Below are positions 17,389-25,081 of a DNA stretch of 32,549 nucleotides, piece after piece (position 1 is the first letter of the stretch; each line of letters begins with the position of its first letter). The notes under the pieces were generated by a model. It searched no databases. It saw only the letters and a program-made list of their open reading frames with translations, and was not told the DNA's origin. The stretch spans positions 1 through 32,549 of the forward strand of contig DAHUZT010000129.1 of assembly GCA_027315005.1 (NCBI GenBank). Reading direction: 5' to 3'. The position numbers and the translations under genes were made by a program. The stretch is from Acidimicrobiaceae bacterium. Its GTDB lineage: Bacteria; Actinomycetota; Acidimicrobiia; Acidimicrobiales; RAAP-2.

Positions 17389-17952
17389 ATGACCGACGAC
17401 CTCTACGGCATGGTCGAGCCAGTGGTGTCTGCTCTCGAGCTGGAGTTGGTGGACGTCGAACAGCGTTCCGGAGTGGTGTTGGTGACGGTCGATCGTCCAG
17501 GTGGCGTGGATCTCGAATCGCTGGTCCGTGCCGACAGGGCGGTGACGGTCGCCTTCGACGAGGTCGGGCTGTTCGAGCGGAGATACACCTTGGAGGTTTC
17601 GAGTCCCGGGGTGGAGCGGATGCTGCGCCGGCCTGAGCACTTCACCCGGGCGATGGGGGAGATGATCTCGGTCAAGACGCGGCCGCAGGTCCCCGGAGAG
17701 CGGAGGCTTCGGGGGACCCTTGTGGAGGCCGACGACGAGGGGTTCGAGCTGTCGACCGGCCAAGCCGGCACTGACCGGGTTCGGCTGGCGTACTCCGATG
17801 TCGACCGGGTTCGGACGGTGTTCGAATGGGGTCCGGGCCCGCGCCCGGGTGAACGGGGAAAGGCGAACGCCGGCCGCACCGGGCACGATGGCGATGCCCG
17901 GACGGGGGGCGGCACGGATCAGGCGGAGAGGAAGCAGGTCGCGACGTCATGA
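17389..17952 (+). CDS. rimP: Ribosome maturation factor RimP
   Basis: Assembly factor for the 30S subunit. The 187-residue product has the N-terminal domain (ELELVDVEQ) with VTVDRPGGVDLESLVRADR, the hallmark LEVSSPGVERMLRRPEHF (about 65-85), and a C-terminal SH3-like domain. A tail of about 40 Gly-, Arg- and Asp-rich residues follows. GGAAGGAGG (17372-17380) fixes the ATG at 17389; the open frame upstream belongs to the leader. The stop overlaps the nusA start (ATGA). It is the first gene of the operon driven by the promoter at 17192-17220. Confidence 0.95.
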   Translation: MTDDLYGMVEPVVSALELELVDVEQRSGVVLVTVDRPGGVDLESLVRADRAVTVAFDEVGLFERRYTLEVSSPGVERMLRRPEHFTRAMGEMISVKTRPQVPGERRLRGTLVEADDEGFELSTGQAGTDRVRLAYSDVDRVRTVFEWGPGPRPGERGKANAGRTGHDGDARTGGGTDQAERKQVATS

Positions 17953-19214
17953 GCAAGACGAACTTCGAGTTTCTCGACGCGTTGGGCCAGATCGCCCGTG
18001 ACAAGGGCATCTCCGTCGACACGCTGCTCGATGCCCTGGCCAATGCGCTGGTGGCCGCCTATAAGCGTCGTCCAGATGCCGCCGAGGAAGCCGTTGTCAC
18101 CATCGACCCCGACTCCGGCGAGATCCGCGTCTACGGACAGGAGCTCGACGACGACGGCAACGTCGTACGCGAATGGGACGACACGCCAGACGACTTCGGC
18201 CGTATTGCCGCCCAGACTGCCAAGCAGGTGATTTTGCAGCGGATCCGTGAGGTCGAGCGCGATCTCAAGTACGAGGAGTACGCAGGTCGGGAAGGTGACA
18301 TCGTCACCGGAATCGTCCAACAGACCGACAACCGGTACACTTTGCTCGATCTGGGCAAGGTCGAGGCCCTGCTTCCCCAGGCGGAACAGGTCTCCTACGA
18401 GCGGTACGATCATGGAGCCCGTCTGAAGGCCTACATCGTCGAAGTCCGCAAGACGACCAAGGGTCCCCAGATCGTGGTGAGCCGGAGCCATCCTGGTTTG
18501 ATCAAGCGTCTGTTCGAGCTCGAGGTGCCCGAGATCTCCTCGGGGGCGGTGGAGATCAAGGCGGCCGCCCGGGAGCCCGGGCACCGGACAAAGATCGCGG
18601 TCTGGTCCAACGATCCCAACGTCGATCCGGTGGGCGCCTGTGTCGGCGCACGTGGATCACGGGTCCGGATGGTCACCAACGAGCTCCGGGGCGAGCGTGT
18701 CGACGTGGTCCCCTTCTCCGACGATCCGGTCGAGCTTATCCAATCCGCCCTTGCTCCGGCCCGAGTGCGTGAAGTCCGCCTCGATGACGAGACCGGAACG
18801 GCCACGGTCGTGGTGAGCGACTATCAGCTCTCCCTGGCCATTGGGAAGGAAGGGCAGAACGCGCGCCTGGCCGCACGGCTCACCGGCTGGCGAATCGATA
18901 TCAAGAGCGAGTCGCAGCTGGCCGAGGAAGAGTCCGGCTATGCAGGGGAGGAATGGGCCGAAGGGGAATGGATCCAGAACGAAGCGGGCGAGATGGTCTG
19001 GCAGCCTGCCGAGGGGGGCACTGCGGTATCGGCTGCTGAATGGTCACGGGGCGCCGCGCCCGAGGCAGCCGCGCCCGAGGCAGCGGAGTCCAATGGAGGT
19101 GGCGAAGCGGACGCCGCGGACGCCGTCTCCGACCCGGTGGCCGACGTCGATGCGGTGCCGGCCGGGGTCATCGAGCCGGCTGGAAGCGAGGCCGCGGGGA
19201 AGGGTACGGCATAG
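17949..19214 (+). CDS. nusA: Transcription termination/antitermination factor NusA
   Basis: RNA polymerase-associated factor controlling pausing and termination. The 421-residue protein has the N-terminal polymerase-binding domain (1-110), an S1 domain (about 112-185), and two KH domains with DPVGACVGARGSRVRMVTNE (from about 220) and SLAIGKEGQNARLAARL (from about 296). A C-terminal tail of about 90 acidic, Ala-rich residues follows, with the duplicated APEAAAPEAAE. There are no acidic repeats of the E. coli AR type, as usual outside proteobacteria. It overlaps rimP by 4 bp and ends in TAG embedded in ATAG, where ylxR appears to begin. Confidence 0.97.
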   Translation: MSKTNFEFLDALGQIARDKGISVDTLLDALANALVAAYKRRPDAAEEAVVTIDPDSGEIRVYGQELDDDGNVVREWDDTPDDFGRIAAQTAKQVILQRIREVERDLKYEEYAGREGDIVTGIVQQTDNRYTLLDLGKVEALLPQAEQVSYERYDHGARLKAYIVEVRKTTKGPQIVVSRSHPGLIKRLFELEVPEISSGAVEIKAAAREPGHRTKIAVWSNDPNVDPVGACVGARGSRVRMVTNELRGERVDVVPFSDDPVELIQSALAPARVREVRLDDETGTATVVVSDYQLSLAIGKEGQNARLAARLTGWRIDIKSESQLAEEESGYAGEEWAEGEWIQNEAGEMVWQPAEGGTAVSAAEWSRGAAPEAAAPEAAESNGGGEADAADAVSDPVADVDAVPAGVIEPAGSEAAGKGTA

Positions 19215-19504
19215 TCCCTGTTCGGACCTGCGTCGGATGCCGGAGGAGACGTTCTTGCGACGAGCTGGTTCGGATCACGGCCGGGCCTCGGGGACTGGAG
19301 CCCTCCCGGCACGGTCCGGGCCGGGGCGCCTGGTTGTGCCTGGATACGCTCGACTGCTTCGATCGGGCGGTGAGGCGGAAGGCTTTCGACCGGGCCTTGC
19401 GGACGCGGGTCGGAACAGAAGGGCTGGCCAAGCTCGGTGGATTGCTCGCCGCTCGACGCAGGCCCGGTGGGCTCGAGCCGGGCTCGGAGGAACCATCCCC
19501 GTGA
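19211..19504 (+). CDS. ylxR: YlxR family RNA-binding protein (DUF448), apparent AUA start
   Basis: Small protein conserved between nusA and infB; a YlxR structure suggests nucleic acid binding. The frame encodes VPVRTCVGCRRRRS, then GRGAWLCLDTLDCFDRAVRRKAFDRAL, the standard YlxR landmarks. There is no ATG, GTG, TTG or CTG in frame between the nusA stop and the conserved CVGCR; the nearest standard start is the ATG at 19040, deep inside nusA. ATA at 19211 overlaps the nusA stop as ATAG, and GGAAGGG (19198-19204) lies 6 bases before it, ideal for initiation. From there the product is 97 residues. GTC at 19214 is an alternative non-standard start. A sequencing error at the start codon is also possible. 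Confidence 0.82.
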   Translation: MVPVRTCVGCRRRRSCDELVRITAGPRGLEPSRHGPGRGAWLCLDTLDCFDRAVRRKAFDRALRTRVGTEGLAKLGGLLAARRRPGGLEPGSEEPSP

Positions 19505-19572: not shown

Positions 19573-22500
19573 TTGCCGAAGAAGATCCGTGTCTACGAGC
19601 TCGCACACGAGCTCGGTCTCACCAACAAGGAAGCGCTCGACCTCTGCCTTTCGTTGGGCATGGGGGTGAAGAGCCACTCATCATCCATCGAGGACGCTCA
19701 GGCCGACCGCGCCCGGCGAAAGGCGGACCGGGAAGGGCTGCGCCGGCCGGTGCAGCCCGAGGAGCCGGCTCCCGCCGGGAAGGGTTCAGCCGAAAAGGCG
19801 ACTGCCGGGAAGGCTTCAGTCGGGAAGGCTCCAGCCGAAAAGGCGGCTGCCGTACGGTCGGTGGCCCCACCATCCGTGGACTCGACCTCACCTGGTGCCA
19901 CCGGTGGGCACGCCGACCGGGCAGGGGCTGGAACCGCCATCGACCGTGGGTCGGTCGGGGACGTGCCTTCCGACGGGGCCGGATCCGTGCGGCCTACCAA
20001 GCGATCGGGCGCCCGATTGATCACCAGCCGCCCCTCGTCGGAGATGCCCGGCCCCCCCTCCATCCCATCTTCCCCACCCCGGGCAGCGGCGCCTCCGACC
20101 GCGCCGGCCAGGGCACCCGCACCGACTCCGGCCAGGGCACCCGCACCGGCGCCGGCCAGGGCACCCGCAAAGCCGGCCCCGCCGGCCGCCGGCACGGTCT
20201 CTCCGGCCGCCGCATCTCCGCTGCCGGGATCACCGGTAGCTTCGACGAGCGCGCCGGTCCTGGACCCGGCGGCCTCCGGCGAATCCGCCACCCAGGTGCC
20301 CGCGCCGTCGGGTTCGCCGCCGAACGTCGGGCCCGGGGCGCCGCCTTCATCGACCGGCGATCCAGGCGGGTCTGTCGCAATGGCACCAGCTGGTTCCCCC
20401 ACCCAGGCTCCGGCGCCCCAGACTCCACCGGGTACCGCACCCGGCGACCCCGTACCTCCCGCCCCCGGCGGTCCACCGCGGTCGTTGAGTGGGAAGCCCA
20501 TCCCGCCACCGCCCGGTTCAGGCGGCCGTCGCCCGACGCCAGGTGCCTCACGCCCGGCCGGGGCCGGCGGGTATTCCGGTCGTTCCGGTGGATCCACCCC
20601 GGGAGGGGTCCGAGGGGGCGTGCCGCGAAGTGGTGGTGGTGGATTCGCCGGGCGCCCCGGCGGCGGTCCCGGTGGTGGCCCTGGCGGTGGCCCGAGCGGT
20701 GGGTTCGCAGGGCGACCCGGTGGACCCGGCGGACGCGGCGGTCCCGGAATGGGCCGCGGCCGCCCCAACCAACGCCGGCCACGTCGCCGGAGACGCAATC
20801 TCGAGGAGCTGGAGCCGACCCAGCTGACGGCCTACGCGCCCTCCACAGCGCCGGTTCCCGACTCCGAGGTGATCGTCGAGCGAGGTTCGACGGCTCGAGA
20901 CCTCGGGCCGAAGCTCAACCGTTCGGCGGGGGACGTGATCCGCTTCCTTCTGTTGCAAGGGGAGATGGTGACCGCCACCCAGTCCCTGTCCGACGACATG
21001 ATCGAGCTGTTCGCAGCTGAGCTGGGCGCCGAAGTGCGGCTGGTCGACCCCGGCGAGGAGCGCGAGGCCGAACTCATGGCCAAGTACTTCGACGATGACG
21101 AGGAGGAGGTCGATGAGTCGGAACTGCGTCCGCGTCCGCCCGTCGTCACCGTCATGGGACACGTCGACCACGGCAAGACGCTCCTGCTCGATCGGATCCG
21201 ATCCTCGAACGTCGTGGCTGCCGAGGCCGGCGGTATCACGCAACACATCGGTGCCTATCAGGTCGAGTGGCACGGCCATCCGATCACCTTCATCGATACA
21301 CCTGGTCACGAGGCCTTCACAGCCATGCGGGCCCGCGGGGCCGAGGTCACCGACATCGTGGTCCTCGTGGTCGCGGCGGACGACGGAGTGATGCCCCAGA
21401 CCGTCGAAGCCATCGATCATGCCAGGGCGGCCGAGGTCCCGATCATCGTGGCCGTCAACAAAGTGGATCGGGAGGAAGCCGACCCGAGTCGCGTCCTGCA
21501 GCAGCTCTCTGAGCACGGATTGGTCCCCGAAGCGTGGGGGGGCGACACCATCAGCGTGGAGGTCTCCGCTCTCCAGAACCTCGGAGTCGACGATCTGCTC
21601 GAGCAGATCGTCCTCGTCGCGGAAGTCGAGGAGCTGGTGGCCACGCCCGAGGGGAGGGCCCGCGGCGTGGTCATCGAGGCCGAACTCGAGATCGGTCGCG
21701 GTCCGGTGGCTTCGGTCATCGTGGAGCAGGGCACCTTGCGGGTGGGCGATCCCATCGTGGCCGGCGCAGCGTGGGGAAAGGTCAAGGCGTTGGTGGACGA
21801 TCGGGGCGAGCAGGTGAAGGAAGCTCCACCGTCCACCCCGATCCAGGTTCTCGGCTTCTCCGAGCCTCCCGAGGCCGGGGACGAGCTCCGGGTGGCGCCG
21901 GAGCTCGCACAGGCCCGCACCATCGGTGAGGCCCGAGCCCACCGTTACCGAGTGGCCGGGCACGTTCCGGCGGCGACCACCGCCCTCGGTGGGGCGAAGC
22001 TCGAAGATCTCTTCGAGCAGATCCAACGCGGGGAGACCGCGACCCTCAATCTGATCCTCAAGGCAGACGTGCGGGGCTCTCTGGAAGCGGTCACCGAGAG
22101 TCTTCGCAAGCTCGAGCGGGAGGACGTCAAGCTCAGCTTCGTCCATCGCGGCGTCGGGGGGATCACCGAGTCGGACGTGGAACTGGCTCAGGCATCCACC
22201 GCCACCATCATCGGGTTCGATGTCCGGCCCGACCGCCGGTCGAGGGAGATGGCCGCCAAGGCCGGTGTGGAGATCCGCACCTACGAGGTGATCTACAAGC
22301 TTCTGGAGGATCTGGAATCGGCCATGCTCGGACTTCTTGCGCCGGTGTTCGAGGAGATCGTCACCGGAGAAGCGGAGGTCCGCCAGGTGTTCAGGGTGCC
22401 GAGAGTGGGCGCCGTCGCCGGCTGCTACGTGAGGGACGGGGTCATCACCCGCGGTTCGAAGGTCCGCTTCCTGCGGGAAGGCGTGGTCATCTGGAAGGGC

Positions 22501-22647
22501 ACCATCACCTCGCTCCGTCGCTTCAAGGATGACGCACGTGAGGTGTCTTCCGGATTCGAGTGCGGCATCGGTCTCTCCGACTACCAGGATCTGAAGGACG
22601 GCGACATCATCGAGACCTACGACGAGCGGGAGATTCCCCGTACGTAG
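19573..22647 (+). CDS. infB: Translation initiation factor IF-2
   Basis: GTPase that brings initiator tRNA to the 30S subunit. The 1024-residue protein starts with TTG and the conserved IF2 N-terminal domain ([20 protein letters not shown], residues 3-22). Then comes a linker of about 400 residues rich in Pro, Ala and Gly with short repeats, ending in an RGG-like stretch and an Arg cluster. A second IF2_N-like module (about 425-500) leads to the G domain with GHVDHGKT (529-536), DTPGHEAF and NKVD, then domains II to IV. The ribosome binding site (GAAGGG, 19555-19560) is 12 bases from the TTG, longer than ideal. It is 68 bp after ylxR. Confidence 0.97.
20104..20170 (+). repeat. 24-bp tandem repeat in the IF-2 linker
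   Basis: Three units with a 24-bp period, sharing the core CCGGCCAGGGCACCCGCA, start at 20104, 20128 and 20152 and encode [16 protein letters not shown] and PARAPAKP. The linker is under weak sequence constraint, so copy number may vary between strains. Confidence 0.93.
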
Positions 22648-22724: not shown

Positions 22725-23168
22725 GTGGCAGCACGCCGCTACGACAATCGGGGCGCAGCGCCCTACCCGCGAGCCCTGCGGGTCAACCAGGTGCTCCGAC
22801 AGGTGCTCGCCGAGGAACTCGAGAGGCTGGCCGACGCCGAAGACCGGTTGGAGTTGATCACGGTGACCGCAGTCGACACCGCCCCCGATTTCAGTCATGC
22901 CACGGTCTACGTGAGCTCGATGGGGACCGAAGCCGCCGAGGCACTCGGTGAACGCCGCGCCCAGCTGCAACGTGCCGTCGGACGGCAGGTTCGGATGAAA
23001 CGGACACCGCTCCTCGAGTTCGCAGTCGATCCCGCGGTGATAGCCGGCGAGCGGCTCGAGTCGAGACTTCGTCGGATCCGACAGAGCGAGTCAGCGCCGG
23101 GAACCGATCGGGTGGAGCGGTGGACCGGAGGCAACGGCGTCGGTGCGTCCGACCCGGACCCTGAGTGA
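22725..23168 (+). CDS. rbfA: Ribosome-binding factor A
   Basis: Late 30S assembly factor with a single KH-like domain. From the GTG at 22725 the product is 147 residues: RRYDNRGAAPYPRALRVNQV, then VLAEELERLAD, ITVTAVDTAPDFSHATVYVSSMG and the C-terminal RMKRTPLLEFAVDPAV segment, all typical of RbfA. GGAGG (22716-22720) precedes the GTG by 4 bases. Another GTG 15 bases upstream (22710) is possible. The frame is open further upstream only as a shadow over infB. The C-terminal 30 residues are charged and unconserved. The stop overlaps the truB start. Confidence 0.94.
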   Translation: MAARRYDNRGAAPYPRALRVNQVLRQVLAEELERLADAEDRLELITVTAVDTAPDFSHATVYVSSMGTEAAEALGERRAQLQRAVGRQVRMKRTPLLEFAVDPAVIAGERLESRLRRIRQSESAPGTDRVERWTGGNGVGASDPDPE

Positions 23169-25081
23169 TGGCGGCGCCCGAGGACCAGACCAGCGGGCTG
23201 GTGGTCGTTGACAAGGAGGCGGGTTGGACCTCCCATGACGTGGTGGCCCGATGCCGGAGGGCCTTCGGCCAGCGCCGGGTCGGGCACGCTGGGACGCTCG
23301 ATCCGGATGCGACCGGGGTGCTCCTCGTCGGGCTCGGCCGGGCCACGCGTCTCCTGCGCTTCCTCACGGCACTGCCCAAGACCTACGAGGCGGAGGCGGT
23401 GCTCGGTACCACGACGTCCACCCTCGACGCATCGGGCGAGGTGACCGGAACCTTCGACATGGGACGTGTGAGCCTGGCCGATGTGCGGAGGGCAGCGGAG
23501 TCGTTCACCGGCCCGATCGAGCAGGTCCCACCGATGGTCTCCGCAGTGAAGGTAGGCGGACGCCGCCTGCATGCCCTGGCCCGTCAAGGGATGGAGGTCG
23601 AGCGTGAGCCGCGACCGGTCGTCATCTACCGATTGGAGGTCGATCCAGGTCTCACTCCCGGGGTGTTCCGAATCATCGTGGAGTGCTCGGCCGGCACCTA
23701 TGTGCGGACCCTTGTGGCAGATCTCGGAGCCGCGCTCGGTGGGGGGGCCCATCTCCGGAACCTTCGGAGGACGCGTGTCGGGTCGTTCTCCCTGGACGAG
23801 GCGCGTCTGGTCGACGAGCTGACGCCGGCAGTGGTGCTGACTCCCGCCCAGGCCATGAGGGATCTGGAGCAGGTCGTCGTCACTCCCGACGTGCAACGCA
23901 ATGTCGCCTGTGGTCTCGCCCTCGACCGGGTACCCCTCGGCGTGGTCGGCCACGGTCCGTGGGGGCTGGTCGACGAGGGCCACCATCTCTTGGCCGTCTA
24001 CGAAGCCACCGAGACGGATCGAATCCGACCGGCGGTCGTCGTCGAGGCGGCAGGGAGAGGTGAAGGGCGACTGCCAATCGCCGAGCACGCCCGGATGGAC
24101 AGAAGCCGGACGACCCGGCGGTATCCTTCGTCGATGATGGAGATCGTGACACTCCCGGCGGACGTGCCACCACCGCCGGGCGGCAGTGCGGTGACCATCG
24201 GCGCCTATGACGGGGTCCACCTCGGACATCGGGCCCTGCTGACCGAGCTGTCCGCACGAGCCGCTGATGCCGGATTGACCACGGTGGTGGTGACCTTCGA
24301 TCGGCATCCCGCCTCGGTGGTACGCCCGGAGTCTGCTCCGCAGTTCCTCTGTGACCTCGATCAGAAGCTCGAGTTGCTCGGTGAGGCCGGGGTGGACCGT
24401 ACCGTGGTTGTCCCGTTCGACACCGATCGGGCCAACGAGACCGCAGAGGACTTCGTCGAGTCCGTGCTCGTACGCGGACTGCGTTCACGTTTGATCGTGG
24501 TGGGGGAGGACTTCCATTTCGGCCACGGGCGGAAGGGAAACGTCGCCCTTCTCCGGGAGCTCGGCGCCACCTCGGGCTTCGACGTTGCAGGGATCTCGCT
24601 CCGCGGAGACGGTGGCACGGCCGGACCTGCTATCTCGTCGACGAGAATTCGAGCGCTGGTGAGCGAGGGACGGGTGGAGGATGCGGCCGTACTGCTGGAT
24701 CGACCCCACCAGGTACGCGGTCCTGTGGTGACCGGCGACCGGAGGGGCGGTTCCGAGCTCGGCTTTCCGACGGCCAATGTCGCCGTCGGAGGAGGCATCT
24801 GCTTGCCGGCGTGCGGGATCTATGCAGGGTGGTACGAGCGGCCCGACGGATCGCGCTTTGCTTCCGCCATCTCCGTGGGCCGGCGCCCGACCTTCTACCG
24901 GGACCAGGCAGAGCTTCTGGTCGAGGCCCACCTGCTGGACTTCTCCGGGGAGCTCTACGGTGAAGAGGCCCGGGTGTGCTTCGTCGCTCGCTTGCGGGAC
25001 GAATTCCGTTTCGACTCGCCCGAGGCGTTGGTCGCCCAGATGGAACGGGATGTGATCGCCTCCCGCTCCGCCCTCGGCTGA
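23165..25081 (+). CDS. truB: tRNA pseudouridine(55) synthase TruB, in one open frame with RibF
   Basis: The first 323 residues are TruB, which makes pseudouridine 55 in the T loop of tRNAs. They show VVDKEAGWTSHDVVARC, the catalytic GTLDPDATG with Asp46, the YEAEAVLG strand, VPPMVSAVKVGGRRLHALAR and the VECSAGTYVRTL motif, plus the actinobacterial C-terminal domain. No stop codon separates this part from a complete RibF (residues 324-638), so the frame encodes a 638-residue fusion if read from the truB start. The usual arrangement is two adjacent genes. A fusion made by loss of the truB stop, or two products through internal initiation at 24134, are both possible. The start GTG (23165) overlaps the rbfA stop; ATG at 23168 is an alternative. 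Confidence 0.9.
   Translation: MMAAPEDQTSGLVVVDKEAGWTSHDVVARCRRAFGQRRVGHAGTLDPDATGVLLVGLGRATRLLRFLTALPKTYEAEAVLGTTTSTLDASGEVTGTFDMGRVSLADVRRAAESFTGPIEQVPPMVSAVKVGGRRLHALARQGMEVEREPRPVVIYRLEVDPGLTPGVFRIIVECSAGTYVRTLVADLGAALGGGAHLRNLRRTRVGSFSLDEARLVDELTPAVVLTPAQAMRDLEQVVVTPDVQRNVACGLALDRVPLGVVGHGPWGLVDEGHHLLAVYEATETDRIRPAVVVEAAGRGEGRLPIAEHARMDRSRTTRRYPSSMMEIVTLPADVPPPPGGSAVTIGAYDGVHLGHRALLTELSARAADAGLTTVVVTFDRHPASVVRPESAPQFLCDLDQKLELLGEAGVDRTVVVPFDTDRANETAEDFVESVLVRGLRSRLIVVGEDFHFGHGRKGNVALLRELGATSGFDVAGISLRGDGGTAGPAISSTRIRALVSEGRVEDAAVLLDRPHQVRGPVVTGDRRGGSELGFPTANVAVGGGICLPACGIYAGWYERPDGSRFASAISVGRRPTFYRDQAELLVEAHLLDFSGELYGEEARVCFVARLRDEFRFDSPEALVAQMERDVIASRSALG
24122..24133 (+). promoter_or_regulatory. 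Candidate internal leaderless promoter -10 of ribF
   Basis: TATCCT (24122-24127) lies 6 bases before the ATG at 24134, inside the linker of the truB–ribF frame. No Shine-Dalgarno precedes that ATG. If active it would give free RibF from a leaderless mRNA. Confidence 0.5.
24134..25081 (+). CDS. ribF: Bifunctional riboflavin kinase/FAD synthetase (internal start within the truB frame)
   Basis: Converts riboflavin to FMN and then FAD. The 315-residue segment is a full-length RibF. The N-terminal nucleotidyltransferase domain has TIGAYDGVHLGHRAL, FDRHPASVVRP, the VGEDFHFGHGRKGN loop and ISSTRIR. The C-terminal flavokinase domain has GSELGFPTAN and ISVGRRPTF. The N-terminus MMEIVTLPADV fits a normal RibF start, which supports independent initiation at 24134 as well as, or instead of, the fusion with TruB. 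RibF commonly follows TruB in this operon. The rpsO and pnp genes that often come next are missing; the next gene is convergent. Confidence 0.9.
   Translation: MMEIVTLPADVPPPPGGSAVTIGAYDGVHLGHRALLTELSARAADAGLTTVVVTFDRHPASVVRPESAPQFLCDLDQKLELLGEAGVDRTVVVPFDTDRANETAEDFVESVLVRGLRSRLIVVGEDFHFGHGRKGNVALLRELGATSGFDVAGISLRGDGGTAGPAISSTRIRALVSEGRVEDAAVLLDRPHQVRGPVVTGDRRGGSELGFPTANVAVGGGICLPACGIYAGWYERPDGSRFASAISVGRRPTFYRDQAELLVEAHLLDFSGELYGEEARVCFVARLRDEFRFDSPEALVAQMERDVIASRSALG

Follow-up and report, generated by a model that had tools for sequence, protein, structure and literature searches.

In the window, by which the whole analysed stretch of 32,549 nucleotides is meant (Acidimicrobiaceae bacterium, assembly GCA_027315005.1, contig DAHUZT010000129.1), the gene ylxR very probably starts at the AUA codon at 19211 by re-initiation after nusA, with a low yield and perhaps under discrimination by IF3. 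As far as comparison can show, this AUA start is real, and it appears to be old and widespread in Acidimicrobiia. Initiation at AUA had been proposed in a sequence-only reading of the same DNA, and comparison now lends the proposal good support: the codon is kept in 98 of 164 class-level loci, 60 of these 98 have no standard start available, the Shine-Dalgarno spacing fits, and two relatives carry ATG at the homologous position. Conserved AUA starts are already known from Staphylococcus aureus; new here are the gene, the overlap of AUA with a stop codon and the spread through much of a class. An AUA start of ylxR was not found in the titles and abstract openings of the open-licence part of PubMed Central, and to our knowledge, from a search that was not exhaustive, no other natural AUA start outside infC would match it in breadth of conservation.

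The nusA-ylxR junction in the window

The operon in the window has the order rimP, nusA, ylxR, infB, rbfA and a truB-ribF reading frame, and the features given with coordinates in this section lie on the plus strand. The rimP gene (17389-17952; PF02576 and PF17384) has an ATG start with AGGAGG upstream and ends in an ATGA overlap with nusA, which had been noted before and is present at 17949-17952. The nusA gene (17949-19214; PF13184, PF08529 and others) starts at ATG and ends with ...ACG GCA TAG, GCA being its last sense codon and TAG (19212-19214) its stop codon. In the ylxR frame the same junction reads ...TAC GGC ATA GTC CCT GTT CGG ACC TGC, where ATA, the proposed start codon, occupies 19211-19213 and overlaps the nusA stop as AUAG. 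The two co-directed genes therefore share a 4-base stop-start overlap (19211-19214), the arrangement of a termination-reinitiation pair. Both the overlap and a GGAAGGG (19198-19204) ending 6 bases before ATA are as claimed in the sequence-only reading; the latter belongs to a Shine-Dalgarno-like stretch, GGGGAAGGG (19196-19204), with its AAGG core 7 bases before ATA. Compared with most relatives, the window has a weak Shine-Dalgarno match (4 bases, -7.2 kcal/mol), and RNA structure at the junction did not exceed chance (z 0.27; 19172-19252, window only).

The gene downstream of the junction is ylxR (rnpM-like; 19211-19504 with the stop codon included), encoding 97 aa if read from AUA. The frame 19211-19501 matches PF04296 over residues 5-70 (E 1.5e-17), with the domain match starting at 19223, and its score of 63.7 bits against a curated cut-off of 26.9 places it in the YlxR/RnpM family, as does its position between nusA and infB. 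It is the single PF04296 match found in the window's genome. The following infB (19573-22647; PF11987, PF00009 and PF04760) has a TTG start, and a GCCAGGGCACCCGCA-like short repeat was seen by eye at 20104-20170, in the Pro/Ala-rich N-terminal part of its product. Further downstream, one 638-aa frame (23165-25081) contains TruB domains and then FAD synthetase and riboflavin kinase domains, which makes it a TruB-RibF fusion.

The earlier statement that no standard start lies in frame nearby holds close to the junction, but the open frame is longer than was implied and contains an ATG at 19040-19042, the sole ATG, GTG, TTG or CTG upstream of the RTC motif in the ylxR frame. An altered initiator tRNA reading AUA was considered and rejected: one pattern search with one mismatch allowed returned one initiator tRNA gene with the usual CAT anticodon, and the other match (L325) was not accompanied by a called tRNA carrying that arm.

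Conservation of the overlapping ATA and its properties as a probable start codon

The genus set comprised 14 genomes, the window's own included, and YlxR was found in 13; in the remaining one (G007, 69% complete) a YlxR match was absent. Further loci were taken at the family, order, class and phylum levels, together with 80 named loci found with the window's NusA: 38 from Acidimicrobiales (NCBI ranks), 41 from other or unranked Actinomycetota and one (L298) labelled Acidobacteriota. The class was taken as Acidimicrobiia on the names of these named loci, all of whose titles but one are those of metagenome-assembled genomes, the exception being Aciditerrimonas ferrireducens MV1 (L300; Acidimicrobiales). 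Of the 293 loci entering the joint analysis, 281 had a YlxR match. Those with distinct junction sequences numbered 233, comprising 144 from the window's class by kinship codes and 20 named (together 164), 68 from other classes and one second copy. The second copy (L014, on contig C2 of genome G002), which was kept out of the 164, is a second YlxR adjoining a nusA-like end; it has an ATAG of its own, has GTG at -3, and represents either contamination or a true duplicate. One locus, L097, had entered the ATA group through a fallback rule, and its removal changed the ATA count from 99 to 98; it is still counted as ATA in the NusA tree, the Shine-Dalgarno control figures and duplex-energy medians, the nusA codon and start counts, the chance estimates for standard starts and the synonymous-codon result for the motif. 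Four of the 98 ATA loci were placed without a nusA match, by ATAG itself.

The comparison of the codon in related genomes, which had been suggested as a check, showed that all 13 genus-level loci, each with ylxR beside nusA, share the ATAG junction at this position. Across the class, ATA overlaps the nusA stop in 98 of the 164 distinct loci (82 as ATAG and 16 as ATAA), a proportion that, like the others given here, is no unbiased census, as loci of the whole-genome searches were taken partly for their best score. A near-cognate AUH codon is thus kept at the same place in relatives, including Aciditerrimonas ferrireducens MV1, where ATAG is preceded by GAAGGGGG. Other overlaps among the 164 were GTA (16 loci), CTG in CTGA (5) and GTG in GTGA (1), the rest being without such an overlap; the 116 overlaps tallied for the class did not include ATGA. 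Sorted by kinship code, 13 of the ATA loci come from the genus, 49 from the family, 22 from the order and 1 from the class, and 13 are named, a distribution suggesting that the ATA habit is mainly that of the window's order. The general expectation that AUA starts are very rare therefore does not extend to ylxR of Acidimicrobiia, for which the sample shows AUA as the apparent start more often than any other codon.

In a tree of NusA with 156 rows, the distribution of ATA needs 25 changes compared with 49.4 when labels are shuffled (quick method, L097 as ATA). One clade of 112 rows is mainly ATA (84 rows), and the other, of 44 rows, is mixed (9 ATA); additionally, ATA and GTA are both present within single genera (g7, g8, g10 and g11). 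In other classes of the phylum, 56 of 68 loci have ATG, GTG or TTG at -2 to -20 codons of the motif, compared with about 36% that would have such a start by composition, as measured in the frame of the window's class.

The base preceding the overlapping stop behaves as the first base of a start codon would. Among the 114 NTAG or NTAA overlaps this base is A in 98 and G in 16, with no C and no T, whereas the last codons of nusA, whose third positions are 12% A, 39% C, 38% G and 11% T, predict 56.7 pyrimidines; the corresponding binomial figure of 1e-34 supposes independent loci, which these are not, being related and in part selected by score, and overstates the case, but the direction is clear. 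The 6 NTGA overlaps have CTG (5) or GTG (1) as the codon. As controls, 42 class loci in which ylxR does not overlap this way have A before the nusA stop in 7 cases (5 of the 24 with TAG or TAA), and 6 named relatives in which ylxR was not found behind nusA have it in none; two loci were dropped from the latter control, L288 with its contig ending inside ylxR and with the same ATAG, and L299 with its contig ending 19 bases after nusA.

Standard starts are absent from most members. In 60 of the 98 ATA loci there is no ATG, GTG, TTG or CTG in the open frame before the RTC motif; in one of these 60 (L047) the frame runs off its contig, and in 18 an in-frame stop lies no more than 15 codons from the motif. 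Within 20 codons, 96 of the 98 are without ATG, GTG or TTG. A 19-codon stretch of this frame lacks all three by chance in 64% of cases; therefore, the absence means little in a single locus and counts only in combination. Downstream of the proposed start, Pro is found at codon -2 in 73 of 81 loci (a recount without L097), with all four Pro codons in use, and the R and C of the RTC motif are fixed with mixed synonymous codons, suggesting that coding constraint begins right after AUA.

The region upstream of ATA also has the features of an initiation site. A Shine-Dalgarno match of at least 5 bases occurs in 62 of the 98 ATA loci (likewise a recount without L097), compared with 14.4% at control places, and of the 92 ATA loci with any match, 62 have a spacing of 7 bases. 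The median duplex energy is -10.1 at ATA loci and -5.0 at control places (L097 included); for comparison, the nusA ATG starts in 64 of the same loci have a median of -6.4 (L097 included). In two relatives, L322 and L323, nusA ends at a stop of its own and the homologous -4 codon is ATG. ATA is otherwise little used in the neighbouring gene: it accounts for just 20 of 1541 internal Ile codons of nusA, and the nusA start in the same loci is ATG in 85 of 108 and never ATA, with 19 aligned starts falling on no start codon.

Alternative readings and loci outside the pattern

A rather unlikely alternative accepts AUA as the real start and takes it as a weak codon without a regulatory role, AUGA having drifted to AUAA or AUAG along with the nusA stop and strong Shine-Dalgarno re-initiation tolerating the outcome. 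Such drift requires little, as one change from TGA to TAA makes ATGA into ATAA, and the likely history of the junction runs in this way, from ATGA to ATAA by one change of the nusA stop and then to ATAG. All 6 named relatives in which nusA was not found to be followed by ylxR likewise end nusA with TAG or TAA, and GTA stands in place of ATA in 16 loci. However, a weak start under no selection to stay would be expected to be repaired to ATGA, which is missing from the 116 overlaps tallied, and ATA has been kept over deep divergence, as the 25 changes against 49.4 in shuffles of the NusA tree indicate. The neighbouring nusA start, moreover, stayed ATG, followed by A, in 77 of 108 loci.

It is very unlikely that ylxR has no separate start and is joined to NusA by a -1 shift at the nusA end. 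The two frames are related by -1 across the 4-base overlap, and a Shine-Dalgarno stretch inside a gene can stimulate frameshifting; yet the last nusA codon is variously GCA, GGA, GAA, CCA, CGA and others, and the NusA-YlxR fusion was rejected since no conserved slippery sequence is found among these codons. The 7-base spacing suits initiation, a first base confined to A or G points to a start codon, and L322 and L323 have their separate ATG after a closed nusA frame, all of which argue against a shift.

Still more improbable is a start of YlxR at ATG 19040, with a 57-residue Arg/Gly-rich extension read from inside nusA. The frame is open over this distance and the ATG is there, 57 codons before ATA and deep inside nusA; because the open frame holds it, the window alone is insufficient to exclude the extended protein, which is excluded by the relatives. 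This start was rejected on the 60 of 98 ATA loci that have no ATG, GTG, TTG or CTG in frame, 18 of them with an in-frame stop within 15 codons, and the extended form scores slightly lower against PF04296 (62.2 vs 63.7 bits). Finally, although the window's genome is a draft of 130 contigs, a sequencing or assembly error has practically no likelihood left and is refuted, since 98 distinct loci, spread over many assemblies and including a named strain, share the junction.

The class-level loci without an ATA or GTA overlap number 50 of 164. Among the 49 of these that were listed (L097 not among them), 20 have no ATG, GTG or TTG at -2 to -20 codons, and several have no recognisable start. In L061, L063, L122, L228 and L229 the nusA stop is one base closer and in the other frame, with no recognisable start and the YlxR motif intact, and L058 and L310 are likewise without a recognisable start. 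In L228 an ACG lies behind a good Shine-Dalgarno stretch, which is suggestive of ACG as the start where the nusA stop is one base closer; elsewhere in such loci, ACG is probably a by-product of Asp codons in the NusA tail. Overall, the non-fitting loci may represent further near-cognate starts or misread junctions.

Other near-cognate codons were also observed at the start of ylxR. L077 and L110 have ATT and ATC as candidate starts with a Shine-Dalgarno stretch and with no ATG, GTG or TTG available, and the same holds for L216, from another class, with a candidate ATT or ATC start. GTAG or GTAA occurs in L032, L034, L043, L051, L053, L055, L057, L060, L068 and 7 more loci. GTA at the overlap possibly represents natural GUA starts; a Shine-Dalgarno match of at least 5 bases is found in just 4 of the 16 GTA loci, weaker than in the ATA loci.

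infC, IF3 and the proposed control of YlxR

For re-initiation at AUA 19211, the reading preferred here, the following course is proposed. Ribosomes finishing nusA at the overlapping UAG would be held by the Shine-Dalgarno sequence in the nusA end, a minority of them would re-initiate one base back, and the initiator tRNA would pair with AUA through a third-position mismatch. YlxR would thus be made at a fixed, low ratio to NusA and IF2, which would suit the partner of a scarce ribozyme. Initiation at AUA, its coupling to nusA termination and the low yield are what we infer from the aligned sequences.

The part of IF3 in this mechanism draws on infC. In E. coli, infC and pcnB start at AUU, a codon against which IF3 discriminates, and infC is autoregulated; it is established for E. 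coli that IF3 rejects AUA as well. The two E. coli genes resemble ylxR in having a weak start, and ylxR differs from them in the third base, which is A and not U, in being another gene and in its stop-start overlap. In the window's genome, infC (L184:1740-1738, minus strand, contig C56) has ATA at the expected start after GGGAG, with no ATG, GTG, TTG or CTG in its open frame and with following genes that resemble rpmI and rplT by eye. Among the 41 genomes searched, infC was found in 40, and 30 loci were read, the window's genome included; by a tally made by eye, the expected start is ATA in 20 (L160 being the least certain), ATC in 9 and ATT or ATC in 1. No ATG, GTG, TTG or CTG is present in the open frame in 20 of the 30, the less sure loci being L182, where an ATG lies in frame seven codons ahead of the conserved stretch, and L179, where there is a CTG. 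Covariation of the infC and ylxR start codons was not seen by eye, as ylxR ATA occurs beside infC ATA, ATC and ATT/ATC.

Combined, these observations suggest that infC and ylxR apparently share codons against which IF3 discriminates. Since IF3 rejects AUA and infC itself seems to start at AUA, YlxR may be IF3-responsive, and the apparent ATA start of infC in the same genome gives circumstantial support to the earlier suggestion that ylxR output is tied to initiation-factor levels. This response is a tentative matter and the least certain step of the mechanism: YlxR output may rise when IF3 is short and fall when IF3 is plentiful.

The closest known starts are those of S. aureus, where, in the available portion of PMC13009471, AUA is described as the start of infC, ccpN and citZ and AUU as that of cvfC1, and where IF3 is said to discriminate against such near-cognate start codons. 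The same portion reports, for the three genes tested in poor medium, that AUA and AUU starts reach about 10% of the AUG yield, and for ccpN in rich medium up to 30% (PMC13009471); the AUA yield in ylxR would be expected to be of the same order as in these reporters. Like ylxR, the S. aureus genes combine a near-cognate AUH start with a strong Shine-Dalgarno sequence, and for ccpN and cvfC1 the start is conserved across relatives (PMC13009471, as far as the available portion goes). Unlike them, ylxR has its codon inside the upstream stop codon and conserved over much of a class. The junction also has the same 4-base co-directed overlap as the ATGA termination-reinitiation overlaps treated in the accessible part of PMC6728339, but it reads AUAG or AUAA and its coupled start is near-cognate.

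The ylxR product belongs to the same protein family as B. subtilis YlxR (RnpM), an RNase P modulator. According to the excerpt available of PMC11898665, that protein binds the RNA of RNase P and modulates the enzyme in vitro, and about 400 genes are affected when it is lost. In many genomes of Acidimicrobiia, gene finders that allow ATG, GTG and TTG only would overlook ylxR or place its start wrongly. The finding points to a stop-start overlap that would work without AUG, and it makes IF3 control of a second gene directly testable. More tentatively still than the response to IF3, infC and ylxR of Acidimicrobiia could form a small IF3-sensed set, in which the AUAG or AUAA overlap of ylxR (GUAG or GUAA in some lineages, with GUA as a natural start there) would let IF3 supply set the level of an RNase P modulator. 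If this reading is true, at such a re-initiation junction the start codon would cede its third base to the stop codon, and initiation capacity would be linked to tRNA and mRNA processing.
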